Assembly (NCBI GenBank): GCA_021796215.1
Contig: JAJYOK010000001.1
Location: 186,001 to 250,000, forward strand
Origin: Bacteroidota bacterium
Lineage (GTDB): Bacteria > Bacteroidota > Ignavibacteria > UBA10030 > UBA8401
DNA length: 64,000 bases
Direction: 5' to 3'
Shown here: positions 26,846-50,028 of the stretch, piece after piece
Position numbering within the stretch: position 1 is the stretch's first letter
How the letters are laid out: every line of letters starts with the position of its first letter
Notes under the pieces: generated by a model
Told to the model about the DNA's origin: nothing
What the model saw: only the letters and a program-made list of their open reading frames with translations
The model's database searches: none
Program-made: the position numbers and the translations under genes

Positions 26846-29800
26846 ATGTGCATGTTTCGAGCTTCCGGAAAGGTTGTTCTATTTTTACTTTTTCTCCTTC
26901 TTGTACGACGAGAAACGGCAGTTGCACAATTTAGTCAGAATGCGCCGGACATGCGCGTTCTTGATTCGTCCGAACAGGGAATCACGGTTGAATTCGTCCC
27001 ACATTATCTTCCGCTGAAAAAAGATACTGTAAAGGATAAAGTATACGACGTCGTTCAGTTCGAGCGCGGTTTGCCGTTCGATTATGCATTTGCCGGGAAG
27101 CCCGATGTACGATACCGCTCAGTGCTCATTGGCTTGCCGGGGCGGAATGGCAACCGCATTTCAATTGTCCAATCCGATTTCGAAACGATGACTGGGATTT
27201 CGCTTAAAACGATTCCGTCGTTTCAACGAACAAAGGAAGAACAAAAAAATGATTTAGGTCAAGCGAACAATGGTTCAGAAAATTTTCCGGCGGACATTGT
27301 TTCATTGACGAACGTAGGAATTGTTGATGGAATTTTTGTCGGGACAATCACTCTTTGCCCGTTACAGTACCAGCAAACAGCACATACATTAAAAAAATAT
27401 TCGCGCATCGTTTTTCATGTGGACTATGGAACGCCAGAAGGTGTGCGGTCACATGCCGGTACCGTGGATTGGGAAAAACAAGCGCTTATCAACGGCACCG
27501 TTATGGAAAAGTTGTCGGCAAGCCGGCCGCCTCTTGCAAAAACTGCTCAAGTGAACAGCGTCCTTGCCGCCGGCAAATGGGTGAAATTGGAAATTCAATC
27601 TGACGGAATGTATAAGATAGATGCTTCATACTTGCGCACAATCGGAATGGATGCCGCAGTGGGTGGTCCGTTTTCAAGTGTAAAAGTTTATGGAAATAAC
27701 GGGCGCGTTCTTCCTCCGAACCTGAACGTTTCCCGCCCGGCTGATTTAACGCAATTCCCCGTGCTTGTCGTCGACAACAATAACAACGGAAACTTTGATG
27801 CGGACGATTATATTCTTTTTTATGCGCCGGGAGTGACGGGCTGGAATTATTCGCCTTCGCAAAAAACATACTCGCATTATCTCAACCCGTACACAAATTC
27901 CAATTATTGTTTCATTCAATATCTTCCCGGGGAAACGCAAGCAAAAATACAATCAGTTTCTATCAACGGTTCTGTCGGAGGTGATGTTACAACCACAGTG
28001 GGGAAAGTATTTTTCCATGAAGAAAAAACCAATGTCACCCATTCCGGTTTGGAATGGTACAGCTCGCCGTTTGATGCGCTCGTTGCCACAACTCGCGTGA
28101 TTAGTAACAAGTTGGACGGATACACTACCGGTACGCCGGTAACCTATAAGTACGAACTTCTTTCCCGTGCTGATGTTTCTTCGTCTTTCACTTTAACGGA
28201 ATCGGACAAATTTTTGACAACTGTTCCTATTCCGGCAATGACAAATGATGTGTTGAATGATCCCGCCGCGGTGTATGAATACTCAAAGGCAGGTCAAGTG
28301 ACAACTGTGCCTAACCTTGTTGATCAGCGAAGTAATTTGAAACTGGTCTATCGTGCCGACAGCAAGGCGGCAATCGGATGGATTTATTGGATTGAAATTC
28401 TTTATACACAGCAGCTCGTTCCGGTCAGCGATGAACTGCTTTTTACTTCTCCGGATACAAGCGGCACCGTCGAATATAATCTGTCGGGATTTTCGAGCAG
28501 TAATGTGAGCGTCTTTGATGTGACAAATGTTTTTAATGTCCGATCACTTGCAGTGACGCAAGCACAAGAGGCGGGCCGAATTCTGTTCAAAGATACACTC
28601 TCCTCAGGTTCGATTAAAAAGTATTGGGCAGGAACATCTGCCGCGTATAAGACTCCAGCATCGTTTACCGCAATTCCAAATTCGAACCTGCACGGAATCA
28701 CATCCGGAGCAGATTTTGTCATTATCACTCATCATGATTTTCTTACGCAAGCCCAGCAGTTGCGTGATTACAAACAGAATCTTCCCGGCGGTGACGCCTT
28801 GCGGACGATGGTCGTGGAAGTTGATACTCTTTATAATGAGTTCGGCGACGGCATGCCTGATCCCACGGCAATTCGCGATTTTTTGAAATATGCGACGACA
28901 CAGTGGCAGGTGCCGCCGAAATATGTTTTGTTTTTTGGCGATGCGACGTATGATTACAAAAATATTCTGAGGGAGACAAAAGACTGGGTACCAACGTACG
29001 AGACTTCTACAACGCGCGACCAAATATATACGTATGCTTACGATGATTATTTCTGTTCTCTTGATCCACTGAACAGTACAACAGTTTCTATGGCACACGG
29101 AAGGTTAGCTGTTCGTACTCCGGAAGAGGCGCAATTGGTTGTTGATAAAATTATGCAGTACGAAGCAAAACCCTCACACGGTGCGTGGCAAAATATTATC
29201 ACGATTGTGGCAGACGATGGCTATGTGAACGATGCAAATTATGACGAAACATTCCATACAACCCAAGCAGAGAATCTTGCAACTATCGACACCCCAAAAA
29301 TATTTGATGTGAAAAAAATCTATGAGGTTGATTATCCGACTGTGATCGCTGCTACGGGACATCGCAAGCCTGCGGCGCGGCAGGCAATTCTCGATCAGGT
29401 GAATCGCGGAACGCTTGTGTTGAATTTTACTGGTCACGGTAATCCAACAGTATGGGCGCACGAATCCATTCTTACGCAAAGTGATGTTAACTCACAATTT
29501 TTTAATGCTGACAAACTCACGTTTGTTTGTGCGGCAACATGCGACTGGGGAAGATTTGATGACGGAAATACGCAAAGCTCTGCAGAAGATATTATTACAA
29601 ATCCGAATGGCGGAGCGATTAGTGTGTTCAGTGCAGATCGCGCGGTGTATTCGGGAGACAATGCACTAATCAATTATAAATTTTATGATTATACTTTCCC
29701 CCAAAACCCTTATCAACGAACACTGCGTCTTGGAGATGCGGTGATGCTTGCAAAGAACAATGCGGGCAGTGATCCGGATAACAATCGAAAATATCATTTG

Positions 29801-30904
29801 CTCGGTGATCCGACGCTGCGTCTTGCCGTTCCTCGGCTTGTGATGAGCATTGATTCAATCAACGGTATTCCGCTTTCACAATCGCAGTCGGATACTCTCA
29901 AGGCTTTCGAAAAGGTTACAATAAAAGGAGCCGTACGTGACAATAATGGATCCGTTCAAACGGGCATCAACGGAACAGCATTGGTAACAGTGTTCGATGC
30001 ACAACGTAATCGTCATATTGTTGATTATGGCTTCGCTTATAATTTTGTCCAGGCGGGCGGAATTATTTACAAAGGAGAAGATACGGTAAGGAACGGACAG
30101 CTTTCTGCCACGTTTATAATTCCCAAAGATATTTCCTATGAAAATAAAAGCGGAAAGCTGTCTGTTTATTTTTCGACGCCGACCAGCGATGGGCGTGGTT
30201 ATACAGAAAATGTCGTCATCGGAGGCACAAGCAGCGATACGATCGTAGATACGCAAGGTCCTTCCATTCGAATTTATTTGGATGATAATTCATTTCGCTC
30301 CGGCGATCTTGTCAATGAAAATCCAGTACTGTATGTAGACCTCAGCGACAGCGGCGGTATCAATACTTCTACCAGCGGCATCGGTCACGGTCTCACCGCG
30401 TGGTTGGATGACAGTTCAAAAGGAATTGATCTCAGCGATTACTACACGGGAAAAAAAGACAGTTATCAAGAAGGAACGGTTCAGTATCAATTACCGGGAT
30501 TAGCACCGGGACGTCATACCTTGCAGGTGAAGGCGTGGAATGTGTATAACTATTCATCTTCGGATCATGTGGAATTCACTGTTGCCCCGAGCACAACACT
30601 TTCTTTGCAGAATGTGTACAATATTCCCAATCCGGTTACTGTTGCAAGGACGACGTTCACTTTCCAACAAAATCAACTGACGCCGATTGATGTTCACATT
30701 AAAATTTACACCATTGCCGGACGGCTTGTTCAAACTATTGATCGTTATGCGGTTGCTGACCGCTTTGTTGAAATTCCGTGGGACTGCCGCGACCGCGACG
30801 GCGATTTGCTCGGGAACGGAATTTATCTCTATAAAGTTATGGCAAGTACAATAGACGGAAACATGACGAGTGAAGCTTTGGGGAAGCTGGCAATTGTTCG
30901 GTGA
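26846..30904 (+). CDS. porU: Type IX secretion system sortase PorU (C25 family)
   Basis: 1352 aa; signal peptide; gingipain-like catalytic region LVLNFTGHGNPTVWAHE and LTFVCAATCDWGRFDD; own C-terminal sorting-like domain (IYTIAGRLVQTI..GNGIYLYKV). Confidence 0.93.
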   Translation: MCMFRASGKVVLFLLFLLLVRRETAVAQFSQNAPDMRVLDSSEQGITVEFVPHYLPLKKDTVKDKVYDVVQFERGLPFDYAFAGKPDVRYRSVLIGLPGRNGNRISIVQSDFETMTGISLKTIPSFQRTKEEQKNDLGQANNGSENFPADIVSLTNVGIVDGIFVGTITLCPLQYQQTAHTLKKYSRIVFHVDYGTPEGVRSHAGTVDWEKQALINGTVMEKLSASRPPLAKTAQVNSVLAAGKWVKLEIQSDGMYKIDASYLRTIGMDAAVGGPFSSVKVYGNNGRVLPPNLNVSRPADLTQFPVLVVDNNNNGNFDADDYILFYAPGVTGWNYSPSQKTYSHYLNPYTNSNYCFIQYLPGETQAKIQSVSINGSVGGDVTTTVGKVFFHEEKTNVTHSGLEWYSSPFDALVATTRVISNKLDGYTTGTPVTYKYELLSRADVSSSFTLTESDKFLTTVPIPAMTNDVLNDPAAVYEYSKAGQVTTVPNLVDQRSNLKLVYRADSKAAIGWIYWIEILYTQQLVPVSDELLFTSPDTSGTVEYNLSGFSSSNVSVFDVTNVFNVRSLAVTQAQEAGRILFKDTLSSGSIKKYWAGTSAAYKTPASFTAIPNSNLHGITSGADFVIITHHDFLTQAQQLRDYKQNLPGGDALRTMVVEVDTLYNEFGDGMPDPTAIRDFLKYATTQWQVPPKYVLFFGDATYDYKNILRETKDWVPTYETSTTRDQIYTYAYDDYFCSLDPLNSTTVSMAHGRLAVRTPEEAQLVVDKIMQYEAKPSHGAWQNIITIVADDGYVNDANYDETFHTTQAENLATIDTPKIFDVKKIYEVDYPTVIAATGHRKPAARQAILDQVNRGTLVLNFTGHGNPTVWAHESILTQSDVNSQFFNADKLTFVCAATCDWGRFDDGNTQSSAEDIITNPNGGAISVFSADRAVYSGDNALINYKFYDYTFPQNPYQRTLRLGDAVMLAKNNAGSDPDNNRKYHLLGDPTLRLAVPRLVMSIDSINGIPLSQSQSDTLKAFEKVTIKGAVRDNNGSVQTGINGTALVTVFDAQRNRHIVDYGFAYNFVQAGGIIYKGEDTVRNGQLSATFIIPKDISYENKSGKLSVYFSTPTSDGRGYTENVVIGGTSSDTIVDTQGPSIRIYLDDNSFRSGDLVNENPVLYVDLSDSGGINTSTSGIGHGLTAWLDDSSKGIDLSDYYTGKKDSYQEGTVQYQLPGLAPGRHTLQVKAWNVYNYSSSDHVEFTVAPSTTLSLQNVYNIPNPVTVARTTFTFQQNQLTPIDVHIKIYTIAGRLVQTIDRYAVADRFVEIPWDCRDRDGDLLGNGIYLYKVMASTIDGNMTSEALGKLAIVR

Positions 30905-30967: not shown

Positions 30968-32104
30968 ATGATTTGTATGAAGAAGTTTGGAATTTTTCTG
31001 GCAGTACTTTTATTGTGTGCAAGCGGAGAAGAATTGCGTGCGCAGAGTACAATAACAACTGCCGTTCCCTTTCTCCTTATTTCCCCGAATTCCCGCGCCA
31101 GCGGCATGGGAGAAACAGGAACAGGGCTTGCGGATGATGCCGCGGCGATTTACTGGAATCCCGCCGGACTTGCTTTTTTAAAGGGAAGTGAAGTAAGCAT
31201 TTCGCACGCGAACTGGCTGCCACAGTTTCATCTCTCGGATCTTTTTTATGATTATCTGAATTACCGTGAAGATGTTCCGGAATGGGGCGGAAGTATTGCG
31301 GCGAGCGTGACCTATTTGAACTTAGGCGAGTTCATTCAAACGGGCGAAGGAGGGCCGACTGAAATCGGACGGTTCAAAGCTTTCGAATATGCGGCAACAT
31401 TCGGGTATGGAACTGTTGTTGCAGACAATCTTGGATTAGGCATGAATATTCGTTTCATTAACGATCGTTTATCACCGATTGGCACTGCGAATGAAAAAGG
31501 GAACGGTATTGCGTACGATGTGAGCTTCGATTTTGGATTTCTTTATAAACCGAAAACGCTCATTATTCCGTTCACAGATGTCGATCTGGGCAACGAGTTC
31601 AGCGTTGGGATGAATCTATCCAACATGGGACCGAAAGTTACCTATGTAGATGCAGCACAGGCGGATCCGCTGCCGACGAATTTACGGCTCGGTTTCGGTT
31701 TCGTTCCAGTACACGATGAATTCAACAGCCTCAAGTTTGCGCTTGATTTCAGTAAGTTGATGGTGAGCTATTACACGGATGCCCAAGGAGTTACCCACTC
31801 TGATCCCTTTTACAAAGCGATCTTCACTTCGTGGACTGACAGATCGCCGAGCAATGAGTTGCGAACGATTGTTTCCTCAGTCGGCATGGAGTATACATAC
31901 GACTCGCTGATATCATTCCGCACGGGATATTTTTATGAAGATCCGAATTTCGGCGGAAGAAAATTCATGACATTCGGCGCCGGCATCCGGTACGACATTT
32001 ACGGATTTGATTTCAGTTATGTGTACACGGCATCGGATCAGAACAGCCCGCTTTCCGATACACTGCGGTTCACGCTTCTTATTTTATGGGGCGGCGTAAA
32101 TTAA
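30968..32104 (+). CDS. porV: PorV/PorQ family outer-membrane protein
   Basis: 378 aa; PFLLISPNSRASGMGETGTGLADDAAAIYWNPAGLAFLKGSEVSISHANWLP; directly downstream of porU. Confidence 0.92.
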   Translation: MICMKKFGIFLAVLLLCASGEELRAQSTITTAVPFLLISPNSRASGMGETGTGLADDAAAIYWNPAGLAFLKGSEVSISHANWLPQFHLSDLFYDYLNYREDVPEWGGSIAASVTYLNLGEFIQTGEGGPTEIGRFKAFEYAATFGYGTVVADNLGLGMNIRFINDRLSPIGTANEKGNGIAYDVSFDFGFLYKPKTLIIPFTDVDLGNEFSVGMNLSNMGPKVTYVDAAQADPLPTNLRLGFGFVPVHDEFNSLKFALDFSKLMVSYYTDAQGVTHSDPFYKAIFTSWTDRSPSNELRTIVSSVGMEYTYDSLISFRTGYFYEDPNFGGRKFMTFGAGIRYDIYGFDFSYVYTASDQNSPLSDTLRFTLLILWGGVN

Positions 32105-32185: not shown

Positions 32186-35100
32186 ATGACGAAAAAAATT
32201 TCGCTTTCAGCGTCAGCCTCCATTGTGGGCGCTGCGTTATTTATTCTCTTTTCATATTCGTATAGCGGCCAGCATCTGGCTCATCCGGTACGGGCTGAAG
32301 AAAGTTCTTTTTTTTCGGGACATATTCCTGTTTACGAGCACTCATTTCCCGATACGTTAAAAGTGTTAGCGGTGATGGTACAATTCGTGCCGGATTCGAG
32401 CGAGTTAACGTCCGGGAACGGGCAATTTGATCTTTCTACCGCACCGCAGCGTATCCTTGACGCGCCGCCGCGCGATTCTGCTTATTTCGCCGATCATCTC
32501 CTTTTTGCTCAAAACTATTTTCACAAAGCTTCAAACGGTAAACAGAACATTACGGCAACAGTGCTGGGCGGCGTCTTGACTCTTCCTCACCAAATGCGAG
32601 ACTACAGTCCGGAAGATACAACAAATTTGCCGCTCGCCAATCTTGCCGTTGACGCATGGCGCATGGCAGATTCGCTGTACCCTGCATTCCCGTTTCAAAA
32701 TTATGATCTCTTTGTTGTCTTTCATGCCGGTTCAGGAAAAGATGTTGATCTGCGCGGCTCACTCGGTTACGATCCAACGCCGTACGATTTGCCGTCACTC
32801 TATTTTGACCTCAGCGGTTTTCGTCAGGCTCTCGGCTCATCGTTCAGCGGAATTACGCTGCCAAACCATCCGGCATTCACAATCACAAACAGCGCAATTC
32901 TTCCCGAAACGGAAAATCGTCTCATTCCGGGAATCGGCGGCGACGTTCTGCTGCAGTTGAGCATCAATGGGTTGATGGTGGCGAGTATCGGAAGTCATCT
33001 CGGCTTGCCCGATTTATTTGATACGAAAACGGGTGGAACAGCGATCGGCCGTTTCGGTTTGATGGACGGCCAATCCATTTTTAGTTTTTCAGGATTGTTT
33101 CCGCCGGAACCATCAGCATGGGAAAAAATTTATTTAGGATGGACAACACCGATTACTGTGCCGTCAGGGCATTCAACGCTGAGCATTCCTGCGGCCAGTT
33201 TGACAACGGGCGGGAATGATACAATCTATAAAATTCCAATCAGCGCGAAAGAATATTTTCTCGTAGAAAACCGCAATCGCGATGTGAAAAACGACGGGCA
33301 AACATTGACGATCCGCTGGAATGGTGAACAATTTACGAAGCAGTATGCAGAGGATGATCCTGATTTCAATGCGTCAAATGTTGATTCGATTTACGGAACA
33401 GTGGTGAATGTTGACGATTTGGATTGGAGCTTACCCGGCGCTATCGGCTACACCGGCGGAATTTTGATTTGGCACATTGATGAAACCATCATTGACAATA
33501 ATCTCGCGACGAATTCCATCAATGCCGATCCGGAACATCGCGGCGTGTACTTAGAGGAGGCGGACGGCTCGCAGGATATTGGTCAATCGTACGGACTGAT
33601 AGATCCCGGCAGCGGAAGCGAGGACGGTACGCCGCTCGATTTTTGGTACAGCGGAAACGATTCGCCAGTCTATCAAAATGAATTTTCAGAAACTTCTCAC
33701 CCGAATTCGCTCAGCAATTCTTTTGCACATTCGTTCGTTACGCTGAATCATTTCAGCAGTGCCGCGCCGGTGATGACATTTCAAACCCAGCTCGGCACTG
33801 CGGCGGTGTCGCTGGAAAATATCATCAAGCTTGGCAGCATCAAAGGCAATCAACATGATGCGCCGGTGTTTGCCGATGTTGATGCAGACGGTGCAAAGGA
33901 AGTTGTTTACGCGTCGGGCGATTCTATTTTTATTTTGAAGAACGGAGTTGCTTCCTTGGTTTCGCCGTTTGGCGGCACGCTGCAGCCTGCGATTGCAAGC
34001 ATTGCCGATACAAACCGGATCGTTGCAGTGCACGACAGCTCGCTCTATATTTTCCGTTTGAAAGCGGTTGGAAATGCTTTCAATTCCGAGATTATGAGTT
34101 CAGTCAATACGCCAACATTGTTGTCCTCACCGGTATTTTCGAGAAACGTCTCTAACCCGCAGTTGTTTGTCGGTGGAGCGGATGGCTCACTTTTCACTTT
34201 TTCGACTGCTACGCAAACACTTTCTTCATCTCATATTATTTCTTCGCCTGTAGTTGGTGCAGCGCTCTATTCTGATTCTTCGTTGCTTGCTTATACTTCG
34301 GACACAGTTGTTTCGAGCTGGCAAAAAGTGTGGAGTTTCGCAGGAAGAAAAATTCTTGCTGCATCGTTTGGGCAGTTTGATAACAACAGTGTTGCTTCAT
34401 CGTATCTTGTTGTAGTAACAAATGATAATACTGTCACGCTTTGTCCTCCATCAGTTCTTATGCACACCACCCCGACGTCTTTGGAAAATGATTTGCAGTC
34501 ATTTTCGGTCAACGCCAATGTTACCGGCTCGCTTGCACTTGCCGATGTGAATGGCGACGGTCAGCTTGATATTCTTGTTGGTACCGATCAAGGATTGTTT
34601 GCGTTCAATAAGAACGGCGTACAGATCGAGCACTTTCCGTTGAAAACTCTCGACGGCGGTTCAGTGGTCGGTTCGCCGGTGATTGCAAAAACTCCTTCCG
34701 GCTCCGTTGGGATTTTTTTCGGGAGTTCGAATGGACAGGTTTACGGATTTGACAATAATGGAAAATTGCTCGCCGGGTTTCCTATCCAAACGAGCGGTAT
34801 TGTTTCGTCGCTTGCGATGAACGGCAGCGAGCTGGCGGCGGTTTCAACCGATTCATCGTTGTATGTCTGGAATGTGAACGGTGTTTTTGATTCCACAAAA
34901 ATTCTCTGGAACGGATTGTATGCCGATGAATATCATTCCAACGCTGTGCTTCAAACCGGCGCGGTTACATTCAAATCGTCTGAACTTTTGCCGCCGTCGT
35001 TCGCCTACAATTGGCCCAATCCGGTGTACGATAAAACGACGAACATCCGCTATTACCTGAGCAAACCTGCAACAGTTTCGATAAAGATTTTCAATATGGC

Positions 35101-35266
35101 AGGAGAGCTTGTTGATGAATTTTCCGGTCCCGGAATGGCGAACCTCGACAATGAAGTTCAGTGGAATGTTTCGAAAGTACAGAGCGGTGTCTACTTCGCG
35201 CAAATCAAAGCGGTATCCGCCGGCGAAGAAAAAAGTGTGATCATTAAAATTGCCGTGGTGAAATGA
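32186..35266 (+). CDS. M6-like (immune inhibitor A-type) protein with VCBS/FG-GAP-like repeats and C-terminal sorting domain; zinc motif degenerate
   Basis: 1026 aa; M6-like DLFVVFHAGSGKD, GSHLGLPDLFDT..GRFGLMDG, ILIWHIDETI; ALADVNGDGQLDILVGTDQGLF repeats; NWPNPVYDKTTNIRYYLSKPATVSIKIFNMAGELV C-terminus. Confidence 0.8.
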   Translation: MTKKISLSASASIVGAALFILFSYSYSGQHLAHPVRAEESSFFSGHIPVYEHSFPDTLKVLAVMVQFVPDSSELTSGNGQFDLSTAPQRILDAPPRDSAYFADHLLFAQNYFHKASNGKQNITATVLGGVLTLPHQMRDYSPEDTTNLPLANLAVDAWRMADSLYPAFPFQNYDLFVVFHAGSGKDVDLRGSLGYDPTPYDLPSLYFDLSGFRQALGSSFSGITLPNHPAFTITNSAILPETENRLIPGIGGDVLLQLSINGLMVASIGSHLGLPDLFDTKTGGTAIGRFGLMDGQSIFSFSGLFPPEPSAWEKIYLGWTTPITVPSGHSTLSIPAASLTTGGNDTIYKIPISAKEYFLVENRNRDVKNDGQTLTIRWNGEQFTKQYAEDDPDFNASNVDSIYGTVVNVDDLDWSLPGAIGYTGGILIWHIDETIIDNNLATNSINADPEHRGVYLEEADGSQDIGQSYGLIDPGSGSEDGTPLDFWYSGNDSPVYQNEFSETSHPNSLSNSFAHSFVTLNHFSSAAPVMTFQTQLGTAAVSLENIIKLGSIKGNQHDAPVFADVDADGAKEVVYASGDSIFILKNGVASLVSPFGGTLQPAIASIADTNRIVAVHDSSLYIFRLKAVGNAFNSEIMSSVNTPTLLSSPVFSRNVSNPQLFVGGADGSLFTFSTATQTLSSSHIISSPVVGAALYSDSSLLAYTSDTVVSSWQKVWSFAGRKILAASFGQFDNNSVASSYLVVVTNDNTVTLCPPSVLMHTTPTSLENDLQSFSVNANVTGSLALADVNGDGQLDILVGTDQGLFAFNKNGVQIEHFPLKTLDGGSVVGSPVIAKTPSGSVGIFFGSSNGQVYGFDNNGKLLAGFPIQTSGIVSSLAMNGSELAAVSTDSSLYVWNVNGVFDSTKILWNGLYADEYHSNAVLQTGAVTFKSSELLPPSFAYNWPNPVYDKTTNIRYYLSKPATVSIKIFNMAGELVDEFSGPGMANLDNEVQWNVSKVQSGVYFAQIKAVSAGEEKSVIIKIAVVK

Positions 35267-35366: not shown

Positions 35367-38300
35367 ATGCGAATTACTTTTTTCTACATATTCACTTTTG
35401 TTTTCATAACCGCGTTTTCCGCGCTCGCTCAGGATGGAGATTTCACTCATCCAGAATTGCAGTGGTACACAATTGAAACGCCGCATTTTTATGTGAACTA
35501 TCACAGCGGTGAAGAACGAACCGCAAAGGTGATTGCAAAAGTTGCCGAAGACATTTACGGTCCGGTCACCTCATTGTACCATCATCAGCCGGATCAAAAA
35601 GTGAGCATCGTCGTGAAGGATTACGACGATTATTCGAACGGCGGCGCATATTTCTATGACAACAAAATTGAAATTTGGGCACCGGCGCTTGACTTTGATC
35701 TTCGCGGCACGCACGACTGGCTGCGCAATGTGGTGACGCACGAATTTACTCACATTGTACAGATTCAAACATCCATGAAATTCGGCAGACATGTGCCGGG
35801 AATTTATTTTCAATGGCTTGGTTACGAAGCGGAACGCCGTCAGGATGTTCTCTATGGTTATCCGAATGTGATCGTGTCGTATCCGATTTCCGGTTTTCTT
35901 GTGCCGAGCTGGTTTGCGGAAGGCGTGGCGCAGTACAATCGGCCAGAGCTTGGGTACGATTCGTGGGATTCGCACCGCGACATGATTCTCCGCATGTATG
36001 CGCTCAACAATAATATGCTCACGTGGGATGAGATGAGCGTGTTTGGAAAAACGAGTCTCGGCAATGAGTCATCGTACAACGCCGGTTTTGCACTGGTGAA
36101 ATATATTTCCGAAACGTACGGCGAGGATGCGCTTCGCCGCATTGCAAAAAATCTTTCACGTCTTACTGAAATCAGTATTGGCGACGCTATCGAGCGGGCT
36201 GTAGGGAAGAGCGGCAGGGAGGTGTACAATGAATGGAAAGAACATATTACTGCGGAATATAAACGACGCACTGAACCGATTCTTCAGCATAAAGTTGAAG
36301 GGAATGAAATAGCTTCCGTCGGGTTCGGAAATTTCTATCCGGCATTTTCGCCTGACGGAAAAGAAATTGCTTACACTTCGAACAAAGAAGAAGATTATTT
36401 CGGGCTCTCTTCTATTTATGTGTATGATGTCGTCACGAAAACTGAAAAGGAACTTATTGATAAAGTTCATTCATCGCTGTCGTGGTCGCCGGATGGGAAG
36501 AAAATATATTATTCGAAGATCTCGCGTGATAATCCGTATTGGTCTGGTTACTCGGATGTTTATGTCTGCGACATTGCGACCGGCGAAGAAACACGCCTCA
36601 CGCATGCCGCACGCGCCATCAATCCTTCTGTTTCTCCGGATGGAAAAGAAATTGCTTATGCGACCGAAGCTGATGGCACGATGAATATCTGCGTGGTTGA
36701 TGCTGATGGAAATAACATTCGCCAACTGACACACTTTACTGAAGGGGAGCAAGTCTTCACGCCGAAATGGTCGCCCGACGGCTCGTCCATCGTTTTCGGT
36801 TATGCAACACGCGATGCGCAGGATGTTGCACGCGTTTCTGTTGCTGATGATGCGTTCGAAGATTTAATTCCCGGCGATGACGATTCACGCAATCCTGTCT
36901 ATTCACCCGACGGAAAGAGAATATTTTTTGTTTCTGACCGGACAGGAATTTTCAACGTATATAGTTACGACGTTGCGACGAAGGCGATTCAGCAGATAAC
37001 GAATGTCATTGGCGGCGCGTTTATGCCGACGGTCAATCAGTCAGGCAACATTGCATATGCTTCGTACACTTCCACTGGATTTAAAATCGCCCTTTTAAAG
37101 AATGCAGCGCCGCAGGAATTTGCCGGAAATGAATATCTTCCGCCGAAAAGCCGCCCGCTTGCGTCGTTATCCGACACAGCAGTTGAGAATCAATTTGATT
37201 GGAATAAGCTCCGTGCATTTGACGATACAAAACTGCCTGATGATTCGTCGCGGTCATACCGAAATATTTTCAGCAGTCTTTCAGTCATTCCGCTTATTCG
37301 TGTTGACAATTATAACACGAAGAACAAAGGTTTGGACGATATCAAGCTCGGCGGTTATTTTCTTTCTTCCGACATGCTGGATAAGTACAGCATCTTCGGC
37401 GGTGCGGCAATTAACCGCGAGCTTGAACGCGATATTTTTTTCACGTTTGAATATCGTGACCGGATTTTAGGGTTGTGGAAACTCGGATGGTCGCCGTCAG
37501 TCTCGTTCGAAGTCTATAACATCACGCGAAACAGTACCGGCTCTTTCGATATTTTTACAAATCGTCCGGTGAATATCAACCTTGGCATCACCTACGGCTT
37601 GTTAGAATTCGACCTGCTTTTTAAGCAGCATCTTTTTATGCCTTCGGATTTGCTGACGTACGGAGCGTCGTACAGCCGCTATAGTACAGATGTCAGTTCG
37701 TTTGTCATCCCCGGCGATGCCAATTACCAGCCGATAGATGTTCCGGGCTCGAGCGATTTGTATTTCAAGGGAACAGATCTTTCTCTCCAGTACCAGTTCG
37801 AAGCAATTCATCCGTCGCGTGACGCCGACATTAATCCGGTCGGAATGAAATTTAATTTCCGGTACGATTACGAGTTGAATCGTTTCAACGCAACAGGGGA
37901 ATATGAGGCGAGCGAAAACGGCCTCAATCCAAAGCTTGATCCTTTCGATTTTCACCGTGCAGAACTTCATCTCGATACGCATTTTCAATTGCCCGGATGG
38001 AAACATACGTTGTCGCTTTCGCTGCGCGGAGGAACAATCTTTGGGCCCGAGGTTCCGGACTTTTTCGATTTTTATGCCGGCGGTTTAGCGGGAATGAAAG
38101 GTTATCCGTTCTACGCGATCGGCGGCAATGAAATTGCCACCGCAAATCTGACGTACCGCTTTCCACTGTGGCAAAATATTGATGCGCGATTCCTGCAATT
38201 GTACTTCGATAAATTGTACGCTTCAGTGCACTACGATTTTGGCGATGCGTGGACAGGCAATCCCGCGATTAGGAATTTCAAAAAAGATGCCGGGTTTGAG

Positions 38301-38465
38301 CTGCGGCTTGAATCGTATTCGTTCTATGCATATCCTACAAGAATTTTCTTCAACGGAACATACGGCTTTGATTCGTTCACGTTTGTCAACAGCTATGCGA
38401 ATGCAAGGTACGGCAAGGAGTGGAGGTTTTATTTCGGCGTGCTGTTCGGTTTTGATATTGACTGA
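35367..38465 (+). CDS. Fusion of MA-type zinc peptidase, TolB/PD40 propeller and BamA/TamA-like barrel
   Basis: 1032 aa; VVTHEFTHIVQ (HExxH) with downstream SWFAEGVAQY Glu; repeated PD40 blades (FSPDGKEIAYTSNK.., WSPDGKKIYYSK..); C-terminal barrel FYAGGLAGMKGYPFYAIGGNEIATANLTYRFPL. Confidence 0.8.
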   Translation: MRITFFYIFTFVFITAFSALAQDGDFTHPELQWYTIETPHFYVNYHSGEERTAKVIAKVAEDIYGPVTSLYHHQPDQKVSIVVKDYDDYSNGGAYFYDNKIEIWAPALDFDLRGTHDWLRNVVTHEFTHIVQIQTSMKFGRHVPGIYFQWLGYEAERRQDVLYGYPNVIVSYPISGFLVPSWFAEGVAQYNRPELGYDSWDSHRDMILRMYALNNNMLTWDEMSVFGKTSLGNESSYNAGFALVKYISETYGEDALRRIAKNLSRLTEISIGDAIERAVGKSGREVYNEWKEHITAEYKRRTEPILQHKVEGNEIASVGFGNFYPAFSPDGKEIAYTSNKEEDYFGLSSIYVYDVVTKTEKELIDKVHSSLSWSPDGKKIYYSKISRDNPYWSGYSDVYVCDIATGEETRLTHAARAINPSVSPDGKEIAYATEADGTMNICVVDADGNNIRQLTHFTEGEQVFTPKWSPDGSSIVFGYATRDAQDVARVSVADDAFEDLIPGDDDSRNPVYSPDGKRIFFVSDRTGIFNVYSYDVATKAIQQITNVIGGAFMPTVNQSGNIAYASYTSTGFKIALLKNAAPQEFAGNEYLPPKSRPLASLSDTAVENQFDWNKLRAFDDTKLPDDSSRSYRNIFSSLSVIPLIRVDNYNTKNKGLDDIKLGGYFLSSDMLDKYSIFGGAAINRELERDIFFTFEYRDRILGLWKLGWSPSVSFEVYNITRNSTGSFDIFTNRPVNINLGITYGLLEFDLLFKQHLFMPSDLLTYGASYSRYSTDVSSFVIPGDANYQPIDVPGSSDLYFKGTDLSLQYQFEAIHPSRDADINPVGMKFNFRYDYELNRFNATGEYEASENGLNPKLDPFDFHRAELHLDTHFQLPGWKHTLSLSLRGGTIFGPEVPDFFDFYAGGLAGMKGYPFYAIGGNEIATANLTYRFPLWQNIDARFLQLYFDKLYASVHYDFGDAWTGNPAIRNFKKDAGFELRLESYSFYAYPTRIFFNGTYGFDSFTFVNSYANARYGKEWRFYFGVLFGFDID

Positions 38466-38532: not shown

Positions 38533-39420
38533 ATGAAAACGCTCGGAATTTTTTTATTGTTTCCTGTCGTCGTTTTTGCCGGCGAGCATTCTCTGACCGG
38601 GAATGCGAGAGTAGATCTGCTTTTTGTTTCCGCGCAGCAACTTGATTCTTCGCAAACATCTCAGCCAACGATTCAGGGCGCGAGCGCAGAGATGAAGAAA
38701 CCGCTCTTAGCTGCGGCGATGTCTCTTGTTGTGCCGGGCGGAGGCGAATTTTACTCGGGGAGTTACGTTAAGAGCGCAATTTTTTTCTCCGCTGAAGTTG
38801 CCGCTATTGCAGTTGCACTTACATACAATTCACAAGCGAATTCGAAAACAAACCAGTTTGAAGCGTACGCGAATGCACACTGGAGCGCCGTGCGGTACGC
38901 GAAATGGATTGTGAACCATGGCGTTAACGATTACGGACCGACAAGCCCCGCCCCAACTCCCACAGATTATAATGCCATCGCCAATCATGATTTTTCAACA
39001 ATCAACGCGTGGGAAAGCGGTTCTCATTCCGAAGGATTCACGCATCTGCTTCCTAAGTATGGCGAACAGCAGTATTATGAATTGATCGGAAAATATGACC
39101 AATACAAATTCGGATGGGATACATATCCTCAGGATGCGAATGGCGTTCCGGTATCGGATGGCAACGATTACTATGGCATGGTACCTCAGCAGATGTTGAA
39201 TTACGACGCTGACAGAGGGAAGGCAAATAACTATTATTATATTGCAGGAATCGCAACAGGAGTCGTTGTTGTAAATCATGTGCTGAGTGCGCTTGATGCT
39301 GCGTTATCAGCAGCGTCACATAATAGAACAATTGAAACGCGGGTAGGAATGCGATTACAAAATATTGATGGCAATACAAGTGAGTTGGTGCCTGAATTCC
39401 ATCTGTCACTGAATTTTTAA
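38533..39420 (+). CDS. DUF5683-like membrane protein
   Basis: 295 aa; KKPLLAAAMSLVVPGGGEFYSGSYVKSAIFFSAEVAAIAVALTYN. Confidence 0.6.
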   Translation: MKTLGIFLLFPVVVFAGEHSLTGNARVDLLFVSAQQLDSSQTSQPTIQGASAEMKKPLLAAAMSLVVPGGGEFYSGSYVKSAIFFSAEVAAIAVALTYNSQANSKTNQFEAYANAHWSAVRYAKWIVNHGVNDYGPTSPAPTPTDYNAIANHDFSTINAWESGSHSEGFTHLLPKYGEQQYYELIGKYDQYKFGWDTYPQDANGVPVSDGNDYYGMVPQQMLNYDADRGKANNYYYIAGIATGVVVVNHVLSALDAALSAASHNRTIETRVGMRLQNIDGNTSELVPEFHLSLNF

Positions 39421-40645: not shown

Positions 40646-41210
40646 AACCTTAGTAATTGCCACATTTCCTCAACACTCAACCTTATTACCTTATTTCTTT
40701 AGACGCAATGCTTTTTTCGTAAAATTTCATAAACGATTCATATTCCTCCTTAAAGCCTACTTTTCGATGGTGATTCGGCTGGTTAAGGATGTATTTACAA
40801 ACTCTGTCAACATCTGCCTTTGAGACGGAAAAAGCAGCCGCTGAGTCTTGCCATGCAAACCGCCCGGCACAAAGTTTAATTTCGTTGATAAATCGTTCCG
40901 AACTTTCAGCGATAATTGTCGCCAGGTCTTCTTCTGAAATTGCTGGAGAGCGTGATACAAGAAAATGAACATGTTCTGGATTTGCATAGATTGCGTACAT
41001 TTTAGAGTCGTTGTTGTTTACTATCCCGGTAATGTATTTTTCAATTCGTACTCTGTGTTTTTCAAGAATAGCGGGGAAGCGATTCAATGTTATGAAAATA
41101 AAGTGGGTATACAAGTTGTTGTATTTTATTTTCATTTTCATTTGCCTCTTGATTTTGTTCATAAGGTAATAAGGTTGAAAGATTGTTTAGCAGTCTCTGT
41201 TACTAAGGTT
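40646..41210 (-). mobile_element. IS200-like/RAYT element bracketed by inverted repeats
   Basis: 18-bp perfect inverted repeat TCAACCTTATTACCTTAT (40677-40694) / ATAAGGTAATAAGGTTGA (41161-41178); outer 11-bp pair AACCTTAGTAA (40646-40656) / TTACTAAGGTT (41200-41210). Confidence 0.65.
40686..41162 (-). CDS. IS200-like / REP-associated tyrosine transposase (Y1 HUH)
   Basis: 158 aa; YTHFIFITLNRFP, HUH motif PEHVHFLV, SSERFINEIKL...FAWQDSAAAFSVSKADVDRVCKYILNQPNHHRK. Confidence 0.88.
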   Translation of the reverse strand: MNKIKRQMKMKIKYNNLYTHFIFITLNRFPAILEKHRVRIEKYITGIVNNNDSKMYAIYANPEHVHFLVSRSPAISEEDLATIIAESSERFINEIKLCAGRFAWQDSAAAFSVSKADVDRVCKYILNQPNHHRKVGFKEEYESFMKFYEKSIASKEIR

Positions 41211-42843: not shown

Positions 42844-45800
42844 GTGCATTCACAAATTTTCCGCACGTCCCGGCAAGTCGGGATGGTTTTCAACTTAACG
42901 CGGTTGACTGTTTTCTCAATCCTTCTAGTGATATTTCGTATTCCGACATTCTTCCGACAAGATTTTCCTGCTCGATGGAATCATCAGGCAGGCAAGCGCT
43001 TCTTTTTCATCCTCACAATAGCCGGAGTGTGCGTTCTCGGCTTCTCATTTGAGCCGGATGAACCTTCTATGGCTTTCCTGGCGGATGCCTCTGCGTCGGC
43101 TGCTGTAAGTTCATCTCCATTTATCTTCAGCGATGCAGCTTCTGCCGAACAGGATTCGTTCCCGCAAGCCGGAGGACTTTCTCGTCGTGCGCTTGCTCGG
43201 CTCAACGGCGCAGGAGCCGACACAACCACTTTCTTCGGAGTTGATACGGCAGCATTGAGGCGTGCAGCATTGATGCCGCGTGATTCGACTGCGCGGCTTG
43301 CACAATTTTTGTATCATCGGGAAGATTCGCCGGTCGTTTCGCTTTTCCAGCCGCACACGTACTCGCTTTTCCTGAAACCGCCGGCTGTTCTCATGCATAC
43401 TGTGGAATTGGATTCGACAGGCCAGTTCGTCATCATTCGTGAAATGGTGGATGGCAAAGACGTAAAAATTCCGCTGAAAGTTCCGCTCAAAGAATATATT
43501 GAGAAGAGATTATTATTCGAACAGCAGCGATATTTTGCAGATCAGGTTTATAAGTATGAAGGAATAAAGAAGCGCGATGAGTTGGGTGAACTGTTAGGCT
43601 CATTCACCAATATTGATATCCCGATTCCCGCCAATCCGGTTTTCAGCATTTTCGGTCCGCCGCACATTAACCTTCACATTTCCGGTGCGGTTGATATTAC
43701 GGCGGCATTTCGCAACACGGTAACCGACCAATCTACATTGTCGGCGCTCGGCAATTCACGCAATGAGCCGGATTTCAAACAAGATGTGCAGATCAATATC
43801 AATGGTACAATCGGCGACAAGTTGAATATTCTCGCCGACTGGAACACGCAGCGCACGTTTGAGTATGAAAACCAACTGCACATCAAATACACTGGTTACG
43901 AGGATGAAATTGTTCAAAGCGTAGAAGCCGGCAACGTTTCGCTTGCGACCAATTCACAATTCATCTCGCCGAGCGCAGCGCTCTTCGGCATTAAAACGCA
44001 AATGAAATTCGGTCCGTTGACGCTCGTTTCCATCGCGTCGCAAAAGAAGGGGCAAATCAAAGATTTGACGGTTTCCGGTGGAACGACAACTGTGCCGTTC
44101 GAGATTCACGCCTATCAATATTCCCGCGATCATTATTTTCTTGATACGAGCTACATTCCATTATTCGAACAATACTATTCGGATGAGTCTCGTCCAACCG
44201 ATGCAAGCAAGCACATTTCGGATTGTGAAGTCTATGTTACCCACACGAATCTTGATCCTCAGAACTCTATACAAGCAACCGCGTATGCGTACCTTCCGGC
44301 TATTACAGATTCTGCTGCATACAACAAGTTCAAAGACCCAAATTTCCAGACTTCTCAGGAAGCAAGCGACCTGATCAATAATGGAGAACTTGCTGTCGGG
44401 CGCTGGGACAAGCTTGTGCCGGGGCAGGATTATGTTTTGCATGATTATACCGGTTACATTTCGTTGAACCGTTCTGTGCCGGACAATCAAGCCATTGCTG
44501 TAGCGTATCGTACGGACAGCGGACCGAATTCAGTGTACGGTGTGTTGTCAAGCGTGAAAAGTGTTCAGGATTCTATTATTGTGTTAAAGTTAATTCGCCC
44601 GGTCAATCTAATTCCACGATACCAAACCGCGTGGAAACTGATGCTGAAAAATATCTATTCCCTCGGAGGCAGGAATATCAAGCCGGATGGCTTTAAGCTC
44701 GACATTCAATATAAGATTCCGGGTCAAGACCCAATGTCGGAAATTAATGGAAATTATTTTCTGAAGATTTTCGGGTTTGATAATTTCAAATCTGATAATA
44801 CTCCCGGACAGGACAACACATTTGATTATCTTCCCGGTATTACCATTGATGAGACCCGTGGCGAAGTTATTTTTCCTTCGACGGAGCCGTTTAGAAAGAG
44901 TCTGATACAGTTTTTTGGCAGTGATACAGCAACATCTGACAGTTTGATTTATCCGGATGTTTATGACACACTGGCGAGCGCCGCGCAGAACAACACACAG
45001 CGTGATCGTTTTGTTATTACCGGACAAACGACAGCCGGAAGCTCGAATACGTATAATCTTGGTTTCAATATTGTTGAAGGAAGCGTGCAGGTTATTCTCA
45101 ACGGCGAACCGCAGAAATTGAACTCTGATTATACGGTTGATTACATTACCGGTCAGGTGATTATCAAGAATCAAGCGGCGCTGGTGCCCGGTGCGAATTT
45201 ACAAATCAAATATGAGCAGAACGATCTGTTCCAGCTTGCATCGAAAACATTGTTGGGTACACGCGGCGATTTAAATCTTTCCGATAAGACCGGTTTCGGT
45301 TTCACCGTGATGAATCTGAATCAGCAAACGCTCAGCGACAAAGTACGTTTAGGTGAAGAGCCAACCAATAATACCATCTTTGGAATTGACGGTCATACCT
45401 CGCTTGATTTACCGTTCCTTACCAAAGCGCTGGACGCCCTGCCGTTTGTTTCTACAAAAGCACTGTCGAATATCAATCTGCGCAGCGAAGCAGCATATAT
45501 GTCGCCGAATCCTAACACAAAGACGAGCCTTATTGCAAGCGATGGAGGAAAAGGTGTCGCGTACATAGACGATTTTGAAGGAGCAAAACGCACAATTCCG
45601 CTTGGAGACAATTACGGGCAATGGCACGATCTCAGTGTACCGGCTTATATTGATGGAGTGGATCCGATTACGGGCAACCCGATTCCAGACACAACGAAAA
45701 TATTTTCCAAGGCAAAAACGTATTGGTACAACCAGCTGCCATATAGCGGCGTAAGTGTAACCGATATATGGCCGGCGAAACAAGTAACTCAAGACCAGCA

Positions 45801-48800
45801 AAATGTAACGGTGTTGGATGTTCAGTACGATCCCCGTACGCGCGGGGAGTATAATTATTCCATGAATCTGAGCCGAAATTTTGGTTCTAATGCACCTGCT
45901 GATACTGTGAAAAAAAACTGGGGTGGAATGATGAAGCTTGTTTCTTCAGGTGTTGTGAATTTGGTGCAGGAAAATATCGGCTACATCGAATTGTGGGTTC
46001 AGTCGAATCCGGCTGTACTCGATTCAACAAAAAAGGTCTACATTGACCTTGGCGAAATCAGCGAGGATGTGATACCAAATCGCAAACTCGATAATAAAGA
46101 AGCGGGGACTGTTCAGACGGGGCTTGTGACGGCGGAGCGAGACTTAGGCTTGGATGGTGTGTCAGATGCAGATGAACGATCCGTGTATGCGCAATTTGTG
46201 GCTGCGAATCGTGACGCGTTTTCCGATATCGTTAATGATCCGGCAGGCGATGATTTTAGAACCAACACTAGCGAAGACTACCGTTTTGTCAATGGCACCG
46301 AAGGAAACATGAATAGTGAAATTGGCAGATTTCCGGATACGGAAGATTTGAACGGCAACAATTCGCTCGATTTGAACAACAGTTATTTCGAATATGAATT
46401 GAACCTTGACACCACTTCAGCAAATCCGCAGCGCGTCGGCGGCGGAAACAAAAGATGGTACGAGTATCGGATTCCTATTAATGAATTCATTCGCAAAGTT
46501 GGCTCTCCCGATCTTTCCGTCATTGAATTTGTGCGCGTCTGGTTCAAAGGATTTGATCAGCAGGAGTGGCTCCGCATTACGGAATTCAATCTTGTCGGCA
46601 ATCAATGGCAAGTGAATAACAAATCTGCTGCTGATACCACAATGTCAGTTAGTGTCGTCAGCATCGAAGATAATCCGCGAACGTACACCAGCCCGCCTGG
46701 CGTTGGCCGTGCCGTGGACAGAACGCAGACGGCGCAGTCATCGCAAACGATTTATCAAAACGAGCAGTCACTTTCGCTTGTTGTCAATGGACTTCAGGAT
46801 GGCGACAGCCGTCAGGCAATCAAATGGTTTACTTATAAGCCGCTTGACCTTTTCAGCTATCGCGTTCTGAGAATGTTCGTTCACGGTGATGAGGGACCGC
46901 CATATTCACCAAACAAACGTTTCTCAGATGATTCGAATAATCCCGATGCATATCTTTTCATCCGTTTCGGCTCCGATACGTTGAATTATTATGAATATCG
47001 TGAGCCAGTGCTGCCGGGATGGCATCCTGATAATACGATCAACATTCCGTTCACCGACCTCACGGCAATTAAACAAGGGCGTGATTCGACGAATCAAGTT
47101 ATAACTGTTGGAGTGCCAAACGGTCCACCCGGTTCAACGTACAGCGTGCTTGGAAACCCGACCCTGACAAATGTTTCATTTATTTCTGTCGGTATTTATA
47201 ATCCGCCGGGAAAAGGTGTGCAAGCATTAACCGGTGAAGTGTGGATTGATGAATTGCGTCTTGCCGATCCGGACAATACGCCGGGGTGGGCGTACAGCAT
47301 TTCGTCGCAGATTGCATTAGCTGATATCGGCAACCTGTCATTCAATTATCAACAGGTTGATCCGTTTTTCCATCAGCTTGAAAATCAATTTGGAAGCCGC
47401 ATTGACGGCAAAAGCTGGGGAGTGTCAGCGAATTTTTCATTGGAAAAATTTCTTCCATCGTCATGGACAGGAACATCGCTGCCCTTTAGTTACAACCATC
47501 AGGAATCGGTGAGCAAGCCGCGGTATTTACCAAGCTCGGATATTATTGTCACTCAAGCCGCTGATAGACAGCGACAGATTGTAACGCATAAAACAGGATC
47601 AGCCGCCGCCGGGAATGCTGCGGCAAACGATCTTATCCTGCAGTCGCAATCGCTTTCGACTACCAATACGTATGCGCTTCCCACAATTAAGTTCGTGTTT
47701 CCTTCAAACAAGTGGTACATCAGAGATATTTTGAATCAGTTGACCTACGGGTTCAATTACACGATTTCAACAATGCGCAATCCGACAACGGCGTATCAAG
47801 AGTCGTGGTCTTGGGCAGGACGAATGTCGTACGCATACCAAACGAGTCCTAATTTGTATCTTATGCCGTTTTCTCTTTTTGGAAACACAGGTATTATTTC
47901 GGATTTGAAAGACTTTCATCTTTATTACATTCCAATCACAAACATCGGTGCAAATCTTTCTGTTACTCGTTCGCAGACTCATCAGCTTTTGCGTTCACAA
48001 ATTCAGCAAAGCGCCCCGACACGCGGTTTCAGCGCAACCCGTTCAATGAACTTTAACTGGAAGCTGACGGAAAACGGCTATTTGAATCTTTCCGGTGATT
48101 ACTCGGTTGATATTGCCAGCACTCTTGCGCAGCTTGAAACAGACCAGTACAACCGTCAGCGTGCTTTCACCGACATGGTAGGCGACCTGTTTTTGAAGGA
48201 TCAATTCATCAACTTCGGACGCGATTATTCGTACAATCAGAATATTAATGTCAACACACGTCCGCGGTTTCCCGGATTTTTAGGATTGGATAAATATCTA
48301 ACGCTGTCATCACGATATTCCGTTTCGTATCGCTGGTCAAATAATCTTCAACAGGGAGATTTAGGAAAGGGAGCGGGATGGGGAAATAATATTTCGTTCT
48401 CAACGGATTTTAATTTAAAATCATTTGTTGATACGTGGTTCCCGGCTCTTCCTGCGACAACGGAGAATACGTTACCACAGCTCCCTCAACAACAATATCC
48501 GCCGCCTGAAGCGTCGCCGCGCGGCAGGCGTTCTGAAGGAGCGAATCCTGCCCAGCCGCCGCTGCCTGATACTACGCATCGTGCAATATCTGACACAACT
48601 CGGCCCGCTTTGAACGACACAACGAAGCTTGCTCAGCCGTTAGATACTGTTGCTGTGCCGGCTCCGCCGCCGAAGAAAAAAATTTCTCCCAAGGAAGCGT
48701 TGATTCAAATTGCGCGGCTATTTATTAAAACACCGCTTTTGGATTACGATAAAGTGAGTCTGACATTTACTCAGACGAATTCGTCGCAGAATCCCGGCAT

Positions 48801-50028
48801 TCCGGGCCGCCCCGGCTTTGCAAATCTTTTTGGCAGAGTTCCGTTTCTGCAAGCCGCCGATCCTTCATACGGTCCGAGCCGCGCATATCAGCTCGGATTA
48901 GTTACCGATCCAACTTCGAGTATTACGAGTGTTGTGTTCAAAAATTCATTTCCGTTCATTGGCTTCACGGTGGACCATGGTGTTCGTGCAGTGAATGCTA
49001 ATTTTTCAGATGTGTTTAGCCAGAGCAACAAGCTATCTTTTTCAACAAGCCGTCAATTATGGACCGGCGCCCGCGTCGATTTGAAATGGAATCTCGGATG
49101 GGATTATTCCCGCAATAAATCTGTGACGACGGATGCTCATGGCATTCCGATGATCAACAGTGTACAGGCAGGTGGAAGCATTCAACGTTCGTTCTTCACT
49201 GTGCCGCCCGTGTTTATCTTTTCAATTTTCAAAAGCGGCATTACAGAGGTGGCGCAAGAATATGACAACTTGAGAGCGAACACTGCCGATACGAGAACCA
49301 ACGAACAAAAACTCGCCGCTGCTTTTGAAAACGGGTTTGAATCGTTTCCTCTTCTTCGAAAGATTTTTGGAGAATATTTCCCGCGCGTCAATTATACTTT
49401 TCATTGGGACGGTCTGGAACAGCTTTCATTTTTCCAAAAGTGGGCGCAGCGCGTGAGTTTAGATCATGCGTACAACTCAACGTTCACGACATCGTTCAAA
49501 GGAAGTCTTGTTGGTGCAGGACAAACTGTTGAGGCAGAGCGCATCCTTTACGGCTTTGCGCCGTTGATTGGTTTGAATATTACATTCAAAGAAATGTTCA
49601 AGGGAAATATGAGTGCCAATATTCAGTATTCTACCAACTCGACATTCGATCTTACTCCGATTGCACAAAATATTATTCAAGGAAGCACGCGCGAAATTTC
49701 GCTCACCGCAACATATGGACGCACAGGATTTGAAATACCGTTTTTCGGACTTTCGCTGTCGAACGATGTAGATATCAGTTTCACGTATTCGCTTTCACAA
49801 AATTCCCGGAATACTTATTCTGCGCAGGAAGGACTTGGGACAGCAGTGCCGGGCGAAGGTTCCACTCGAACCACTATGGAACCGCGCATCCGCTATGTAC
49901 TCAGCTCGCGCGTGACAGCATCCGTCTACTATCGTTATACAAGCATTGCGCCTGATGCAGGAGGGTCGAGCATTCCCGGCTCTACAAGTAATGAAGGCGG
50001 ATTGAATGTTCACATTTCGATTCAATAG
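42844..50028 (+). CDS. sprA: T9SS outer-membrane translocon / cell surface protein SprA (start codon uncertain)
   Basis: 2394 aa; characteristic motifs HINLHISGAVDITAAFRNT, GDKLNILADWNTQRTFEYENQLHIKYTGYEDEIVQSVEAGNVSLATNSQFI, SYMSPNPNTKTSLIASDGGKGVAYIDDFEGAKRTIPL-type region. Confidence 0.95.
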   Translation: MHSQIFRTSRQVGMVFNLTRLTVFSILLVIFRIPTFFRQDFPARWNHQAGKRFFFILTIAGVCVLGFSFEPDEPSMAFLADASASAAVSSSPFIFSDAASAEQDSFPQAGGLSRRALARLNGAGADTTTFFGVDTAALRRAALMPRDSTARLAQFLYHREDSPVVSLFQPHTYSLFLKPPAVLMHTVELDSTGQFVIIREMVDGKDVKIPLKVPLKEYIEKRLLFEQQRYFADQVYKYEGIKKRDELGELLGSFTNIDIPIPANPVFSIFGPPHINLHISGAVDITAAFRNTVTDQSTLSALGNSRNEPDFKQDVQININGTIGDKLNILADWNTQRTFEYENQLHIKYTGYEDEIVQSVEAGNVSLATNSQFISPSAALFGIKTQMKFGPLTLVSIASQKKGQIKDLTVSGGTTTVPFEIHAYQYSRDHYFLDTSYIPLFEQYYSDESRPTDASKHISDCEVYVTHTNLDPQNSIQATAYAYLPAITDSAAYNKFKDPNFQTSQEASDLINNGELAVGRWDKLVPGQDYVLHDYTGYISLNRSVPDNQAIAVAYRTDSGPNSVYGVLSSVKSVQDSIIVLKLIRPVNLIPRYQTAWKLMLKNIYSLGGRNIKPDGFKLDIQYKIPGQDPMSEINGNYFLKIFGFDNFKSDNTPGQDNTFDYLPGITIDETRGEVIFPSTEPFRKSLIQFFGSDTATSDSLIYPDVYDTLASAAQNNTQRDRFVITGQTTAGSSNTYNLGFNIVEGSVQVILNGEPQKLNSDYTVDYITGQVIIKNQAALVPGANLQIKYEQNDLFQLASKTLLGTRGDLNLSDKTGFGFTVMNLNQQTLSDKVRLGEEPTNNTIFGIDGHTSLDLPFLTKALDALPFVSTKALSNINLRSEAAYMSPNPNTKTSLIASDGGKGVAYIDDFEGAKRTIPLGDNYGQWHDLSVPAYIDGVDPITGNPIPDTTKIFSKAKTYWYNQLPYSGVSVTDIWPAKQVTQDQQNVTVLDVQYDPRTRGEYNYSMNLSRNFGSNAPADTVKKNWGGMMKLVSSGVVNLVQENIGYIELWVQSNPAVLDSTKKVYIDLGEISEDVIPNRKLDNKEAGTVQTGLVTAERDLGLDGVSDADERSVYAQFVAANRDAFSDIVNDPAGDDFRTNTSEDYRFVNGTEGNMNSEIGRFPDTEDLNGNNSLDLNNSYFEYELNLDTTSANPQRVGGGNKRWYEYRIPINEFIRKVGSPDLSVIEFVRVWFKGFDQQEWLRITEFNLVGNQWQVNNKSAADTTMSVSVVSIEDNPRTYTSPPGVGRAVDRTQTAQSSQTIYQNEQSLSLVVNGLQDGDSRQAIKWFTYKPLDLFSYRVLRMFVHGDEGPPYSPNKRFSDDSNNPDAYLFIRFGSDTLNYYEYREPVLPGWHPDNTINIPFTDLTAIKQGRDSTNQVITVGVPNGPPGSTYSVLGNPTLTNVSFISVGIYNPPGKGVQALTGEVWIDELRLADPDNTPGWAYSISSQIALADIGNLSFNYQQVDPFFHQLENQFGSRIDGKSWGVSANFSLEKFLPSSWTGTSLPFSYNHQESVSKPRYLPSSDIIVTQAADRQRQIVTHKTGSAAAGNAAANDLILQSQSLSTTNTYALPTIKFVFPSNKWYIRDILNQLTYGFNYTISTMRNPTTAYQESWSWAGRMSYAYQTSPNLYLMPFSLFGNTGIISDLKDFHLYYIPITNIGANLSVTRSQTHQLLRSQIQQSAPTRGFSATRSMNFNWKLTENGYLNLSGDYSVDIASTLAQLETDQYNRQRAFTDMVGDLFLKDQFINFGRDYSYNQNINVNTRPRFPGFLGLDKYLTLSSRYSVSYRWSNNLQQGDLGKGAGWGNNISFSTDFNLKSFVDTWFPALPATTENTLPQLPQQQYPPPEASPRGRRSEGANPAQPPLPDTTHRAISDTTRPALNDTTKLAQPLDTVAVPAPPPKKKISPKEALIQIARLFIKTPLLDYDKVSLTFTQTNSSQNPGIPGRPGFANLFGRVPFLQAADPSYGPSRAYQLGLVTDPTSSITSVVFKNSFPFIGFTVDHGVRAVNANFSDVFSQSNKLSFSTSRQLWTGARVDLKWNLGWDYSRNKSVTTDAHGIPMINSVQAGGSIQRSFFTVPPVFIFSIFKSGITEVAQEYDNLRANTADTRTNEQKLAAAFENGFESFPLLRKIFGEYFPRVNYTFHWDGLEQLSFFQKWAQRVSLDHAYNSTFTTSFKGSLVGAGQTVEAERILYGFAPLIGLNITFKEMFKGNMSANIQYSTNSTFDLTPIAQNIIQGSTREISLTATYGRTGFEIPFFGLSLSNDVDISFTYSLSQNSRNTYSAQEGLGTAVPGEGSTRTTMEPRIRYVLSSRVTASVYYRYTSIAPDAGGSSIPGSTSNEGGLNVHISIQ

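Follow-up and report, generated by a model that had tools for sequence, protein, structure and literature searches.

An inactivated M6-like protein accompanies the PorV shuttle and an Omp85-type protein with a putative protease domain in T9SS gene clusters

What role may be played by a protein which is built like an M6 metallopeptidase, carries a T9SS sorting tail and has no zinc-binding motif? This question is raised by a 1026-aa coding sequence (32186..35266, + strand; here M6i) located in a 64,000-nucleotide stretch of contig JAJYOK010000001.1 of a Bacteroidota bacterium, the whole of which was analysed and is called the window below. In the window M6i follows porU, the sortase gene (26846..30904, +; NF033707, 1003 bits), and porV, the gene of the type A substrate shuttle (30968..32104, +; NF033710, 268 bits); these profile matches bear out the location directly after porU-porV which had been proposed from the nucleotide letters alone (the sequence-only reading). 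Further downstream come a gene for a 1032-aa protein, a DUF5683-like gene, the usual next gene of the cluster (38533..39420, +; assigned by synteny and by PF18935, E 2.1e-5, just under the cut-off), two LptF/LptG-type permease genes on the opposite strand, and sprA (Sov), encoding the T9SS outer-membrane translocon (42844..50028, +; TIGR04189, 1099 bits; G000:C14:229372-236013). The translocon, shuttle and sortase genes are found together in this one region, sprA lying 8 kb downstream of M6i. Between the two permease genes, 40686-41162 (-) encodes a 158-aa protein which by eye resembles an IS200/REP-associated transposase.

By its profile score M6i is a member of NCBIfam NF052323, the T9SS-dependent M6-like inactivated metalloproteases. 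It reached 869.8 bits over residues 48-1026, which is 270 bits over the cut-off of 600, and it has the near whole-length match, the inactivated M6 site and the type A sorting tail of that family, with no difference in kind. The inactivated state is already curated by NCBIfam; the library entry gives neither function nor genomic context, and in our literature search no paper turned up that deals with M6 proteins or pseudoproteases of T9SS.

The AlphaFold model of M6i, based on 67 sequences (mean pLDDT 86.6, pTM 0.83), contains a signal helix, an M6 domain in which residues 261-271 form the helix of the former active site, a propeller and a sorting domain. The N-terminus is likely a Sec signal peptide (about residues 1-37; 32186..32296, +), modelled as a hydrophobic helix 10-24 followed by a low-confidence stretch 24-53. 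The M6-like, metzincin-type pseudo-catalytic domain (about residues 55-540; 32348..33805, +) matched TIGR03296 with E 1.2e-17 and 64.7 bits, below the curated cut-off of 110.8, and the M6 region of the family was aligned by hhalign to active M6 domains with probability 99.6 and E 1.2e-23; on these profile comparisons the domain is homologous to M6 catalytic domains. In place of the VCBS-like repeats that the sequence-only reading had seen, the model and Foldseek gave a beta-propeller (about residues 541-930; 33806..34975, +) matching designed 8-bladed propellers and BamB, the FG-GAP score of this region being weak. The Foldseek query was the full model, and all 50 matches listed were to the propeller; when the family profile was compared with the sequences of solved structures, designed propellers and CFAP52 were the sole matches. 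The protein ends with a T9SS type A C-terminal sorting domain (residues 943-1020; 35012..35245, +), over the cut-off of both PF18962 and TIGR04183 (32.1 bits, cut-off 23), in agreement with the sorting tail expected earlier.

The InhA group of M6 peptidases is the one which we take to be the thuringilysins. Metzincins have in common the motif HExxHxxG/NxxH/D, with Asp as the third ligand in thuringilysins (PMC12237041). In M6i the corresponding segment (A266-D276; 32981..33013, +) reads ASIGSHLGLPD instead of HExxHxxGxxD and is encoded by GCG AGT ATC GGA AGT CAT CTC GGC TTG CCC GAT, so that the two zinc-binding histidines are replaced, as is the catalytic Glu, while Gly273, the third-ligand Asp276 and the Met-turn LMDG (residues 292-295; 33059..33070, +), aligned with LMAG of active M6, are retained. 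Compared with M6 peptidases (InhA/thuringilysin, TIGR03296), M6i shares the homologous domain, the third-ligand Asp, the Met-turn, HxG, EYFLxENR and WHID, whereas the H, E and H of HExxH have become A/S/G, S/N/T and S, respectively, in the family. The segment GVFAHEYGHIFGLPDLYD of M6i aligns onto NGLMVASIGSHLGLPDLFD of M6 proteins of the same phylum which retain the site (L163, L164), and a motif scan of the whole 1026-aa protein detected no HExxH. The codons, the alignment to these active relatives and the scan uphold what had been claimed earlier, namely that HExxH was lost and that M6i has no other copy of it.

None of the orthologues checked has HExxH in this position, whether among L001-L060 or among 95 ORFs with a readable motif, two sets which overlap in some genomes, and the most divergent orthologue (G060) reads NGLMVANTGNFLGLPDLYD there. 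In the alignment of 67 orthologues S270 occurs in 65 and D276 in all 67; H180, H430 and, in the Met-turn, L292 and D294 are also invariant, M293 is found in 98%, and position 271 varies between H, Y and F. A lone off-site HExxH, at residue 138 of one orthologue (L032/L078), is not conserved. Chance can be ruled out for the motif replacement because it is conserved among orthologues. Recent decay of the site was rejected too: the sequence-only reading had named orthologues keeping HExxH as the finding that would speak against its own interpretation and had called for this alignment, in which the ASIGS-type replacement proved conserved and such orthologues numbered zero. The dN/dS values, computed versus the two nearest usable orthologues, were 0.01-0.08 for parts of the M6 domain, 0.17-0.18 for the propeller and 0.06-0.10 for the tail, and by this measure purifying selection on the M6 domain is strong. 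These orthologues show that HExxH was lost before the family diversified and that M6i is an ancient pseudo-peptidase. The earlier description of M6i as an exported pseudo-peptidase tied to T9SS gains support from the site lost in all orthologues and from the type A tail; the role of binding or scaffold component proposed with it stays hypothetical.

PorV recognises type A C-terminal domains (PMC12618676), which bind PorV loops inside the SprA pore (PMC10994853). M6i carries such a domain, as type A cargo of T9SS does, and its PorV-dependent export is predicted. M6i and its neighbourhood were surveyed in a sample of 198 genomes of one phylum. M6i scored over the curated cut-off in 74 of them, and four further genomes, all of one family, have a clear homologue with a lower score, which gives 78/198. 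The order porU-porV-M6i-protease-DUF5683 recurs in relatives from Ignavibacteria, Melioribacteraceae, Balneolaceae and in a Rhodothermia MAG. A porV gene adjoins M6i in 73 of the 74 genomes and porU in 65; among the nine without an adjacent porU, this gene lies elsewhere in four, with M6i still next to porV in three of these, and has no match over the cut-off in five. The tie to porU-porV suggested by the sequence-only reading thus held for PorV, and not for PorU.

SprA and the porV-M6i-protease cluster are kept in five Balneolaceae genomes (G161, G223, G172, G136 and G117, family f28; 99-100% complete) in which no PorU, PorZ or PorQ scored over the cut-off and PorU2 was not found, the absence of PorU meaning here that profile scores stay below the cut-off. 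These genomes possibly possess a sortase-less T9SS. PorU2 was considered as a hidden partner in the PorU-less genomes and rejected, since it was not detected there. M6i is not confined to genomes with the PorU-PorV-PorQ-PorZ sortase complex, and since the family persists without detected PorU, PorZ and PorQ, it seems to be tied to PorV and the downstream protease, not to PorU; gene content suggests that M6i goes with PorV and the translocon and is not bound to the sortase.

The companion, i.e. the 1032-aa protein encoded next to M6i (35367..38465, +), was resolved by orthologue alignment and Foldseek into a gluzincin-like domain (HEFTH), a TolB propeller and a BamA-like barrel. Its model (mean pLDDT 84.7) matched TolB with E 4e-12 and the BamA barrel 6fsu with E 9e-8. 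H125, E126, H129 and E185, in the motifs HEFTH and WFAEG, are shared by all of the 48 orthologues compared, and on this basis the HExxH peptidase is intact-looking. WD40-Omp85 proteins form a described group (PMC4104836) and have, like the companion, a TolB-like propeller ahead of an Omp85-type barrel; relative to their description in the part of that source used here, the companion adds an N-terminal HExxH gluzincin-like domain. Companion orthologues were present in 78/78 genomes with M6i and in 0/120 without it, a count which leaves out weak paralogues of up to 139 bits and for which the Fisher p is no true probability, the genomes being related. The pattern reflects few independent gains and losses. 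In about eight genomes (G063, G071, G134, G142, G177, G185, G189, G231) the two genes are unlinked.

We consider it about an even chance (0.5) that M6i is a non-catalytic T9SS surface component working with PorV and the Omp85 protease and not needing PorU, PorZ or PorQ; we infer this function from the dead site, its conservation, the sorting domain, the linkage to PorV and the co-occurrence with the companion. M6i would be exported through SprA by PorV and would stay on the cell surface or close to it. It would take part in the PorV export step not as a catalyst but as a subunit that binds or has a structural role. Its former substrate cleft and its propeller may serve as binding surfaces for a polypeptide or a partner. 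The gluzincin/WD40/Omp85 protein, with which it would cooperate, might supply catalysis or membrane assembly, and the whole would be independent of the PorU sortase and the PorZ/PorQ attachment complex. More tentatively, PorV, M6i and the Omp85 protein could constitute an undescribed sortase-independent T9SS module of Ignavibacteria, Balneolaceae and Rhodothermia which controls PorV-borne cargo; the assembly, release or quality of this cargo would be governed jointly by the pseudo-protease at the surface and by an outer-membrane protein acting as protease or assembly factor.

The main competing explanation, which we find somewhat doubtful and yet the strongest of the alternatives, is that M6i is plain cargo, a surface adhesin or binder of polysaccharide or protein with no role in the secretion machine. 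Its build of pseudo-enzyme, propeller and type A tail is cargo-like, and the propeller evolves faster than the other parts, which would suit a ligand-binding region. On the other hand, a single arrangement with porV is kept across several lineages, and co-occurrence with one Omp85 protease even where the genes are unlinked would be unusual for cargo. Such co-occurrence, together with the invariant HExxH and WFAEG of the companion, would also fit an M6i that is a partner or regulator specific to the Omp85 protein (a substrate presenter, an inhibitor or a substrate), with T9SS just as the export route. This we regard as unlikely: the N-terminal domains of Omp85 proteins are expected in the periplasm and T9SS cargo ends outside, so that contact would require a periplasmic stage or the barrel, and M6i remains by porV where the companion lies elsewhere.

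The idea that M6i belongs to the PorU-PorV-PorQ-PorZ attachment complex, perhaps as a PorZ stand-in bringing lipopolysaccharide to the sortase, deserves still less credit. PorZ (NF052228) is likewise a T9SS protein composed of propellers and an uncleaved CTD (PMC8545088), and the M6i gene often comes after porU-porV; PorZ differs in having two propellers and no M6 domain. Replacement of PorZ by M6i was rejected because PorZ (G000:C27:18950-21184) and PorQ are encoded elsewhere in the window's own genome, and PorZ is present in most M6i-carrying genomes; with the persistence of the family where PorU, PorZ and PorQ are undetected, membership of the attachment complex is already largely refuted. 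Least probable is that M6i has re-invented a metal site and is still an enzyme. The invariance of D276, H180 and H430 in the 67-sequence alignment might be taken in its favour, but counterparts of H180 and H430 are widely kept in active M6 and therefore look structural, HExxH is absent elsewhere in M6i, and position 271 is variable.

The dead active site of the family had been recorded by NCBI; what is new is the association of M6i with the PorV shuttle and not with the sortase, and its presence in exactly those 78 of the 198 genomes that have the Omp85 protease fusion. If M6i and the Omp85 protease do cooperate, then T9SS beyond the Bacteroidia includes accessory components not known from Porphyromonas and Flavobacterium.

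In one genome (G203), the one clear case of joint loss, a single deletion of about 6.2 kb took out M6i together with the companion and kept porV and the DUF5683-like gene; between these two, at 8709-9221 of L184 (G203:C1:494000-510000), what is left of the N-terminus of M6i is fused to what is left of the C-terminus of the protease. Because this deletion removed both, the two genes appear to be dispensable together, although it is one event and equally consistent with their adjacency. Distance correlations among the cluster proteins brought out no closest partner, the trees being congruent. The DUF5683-like gene is still beside porV in G203 and in G216, both of which are without M6i.
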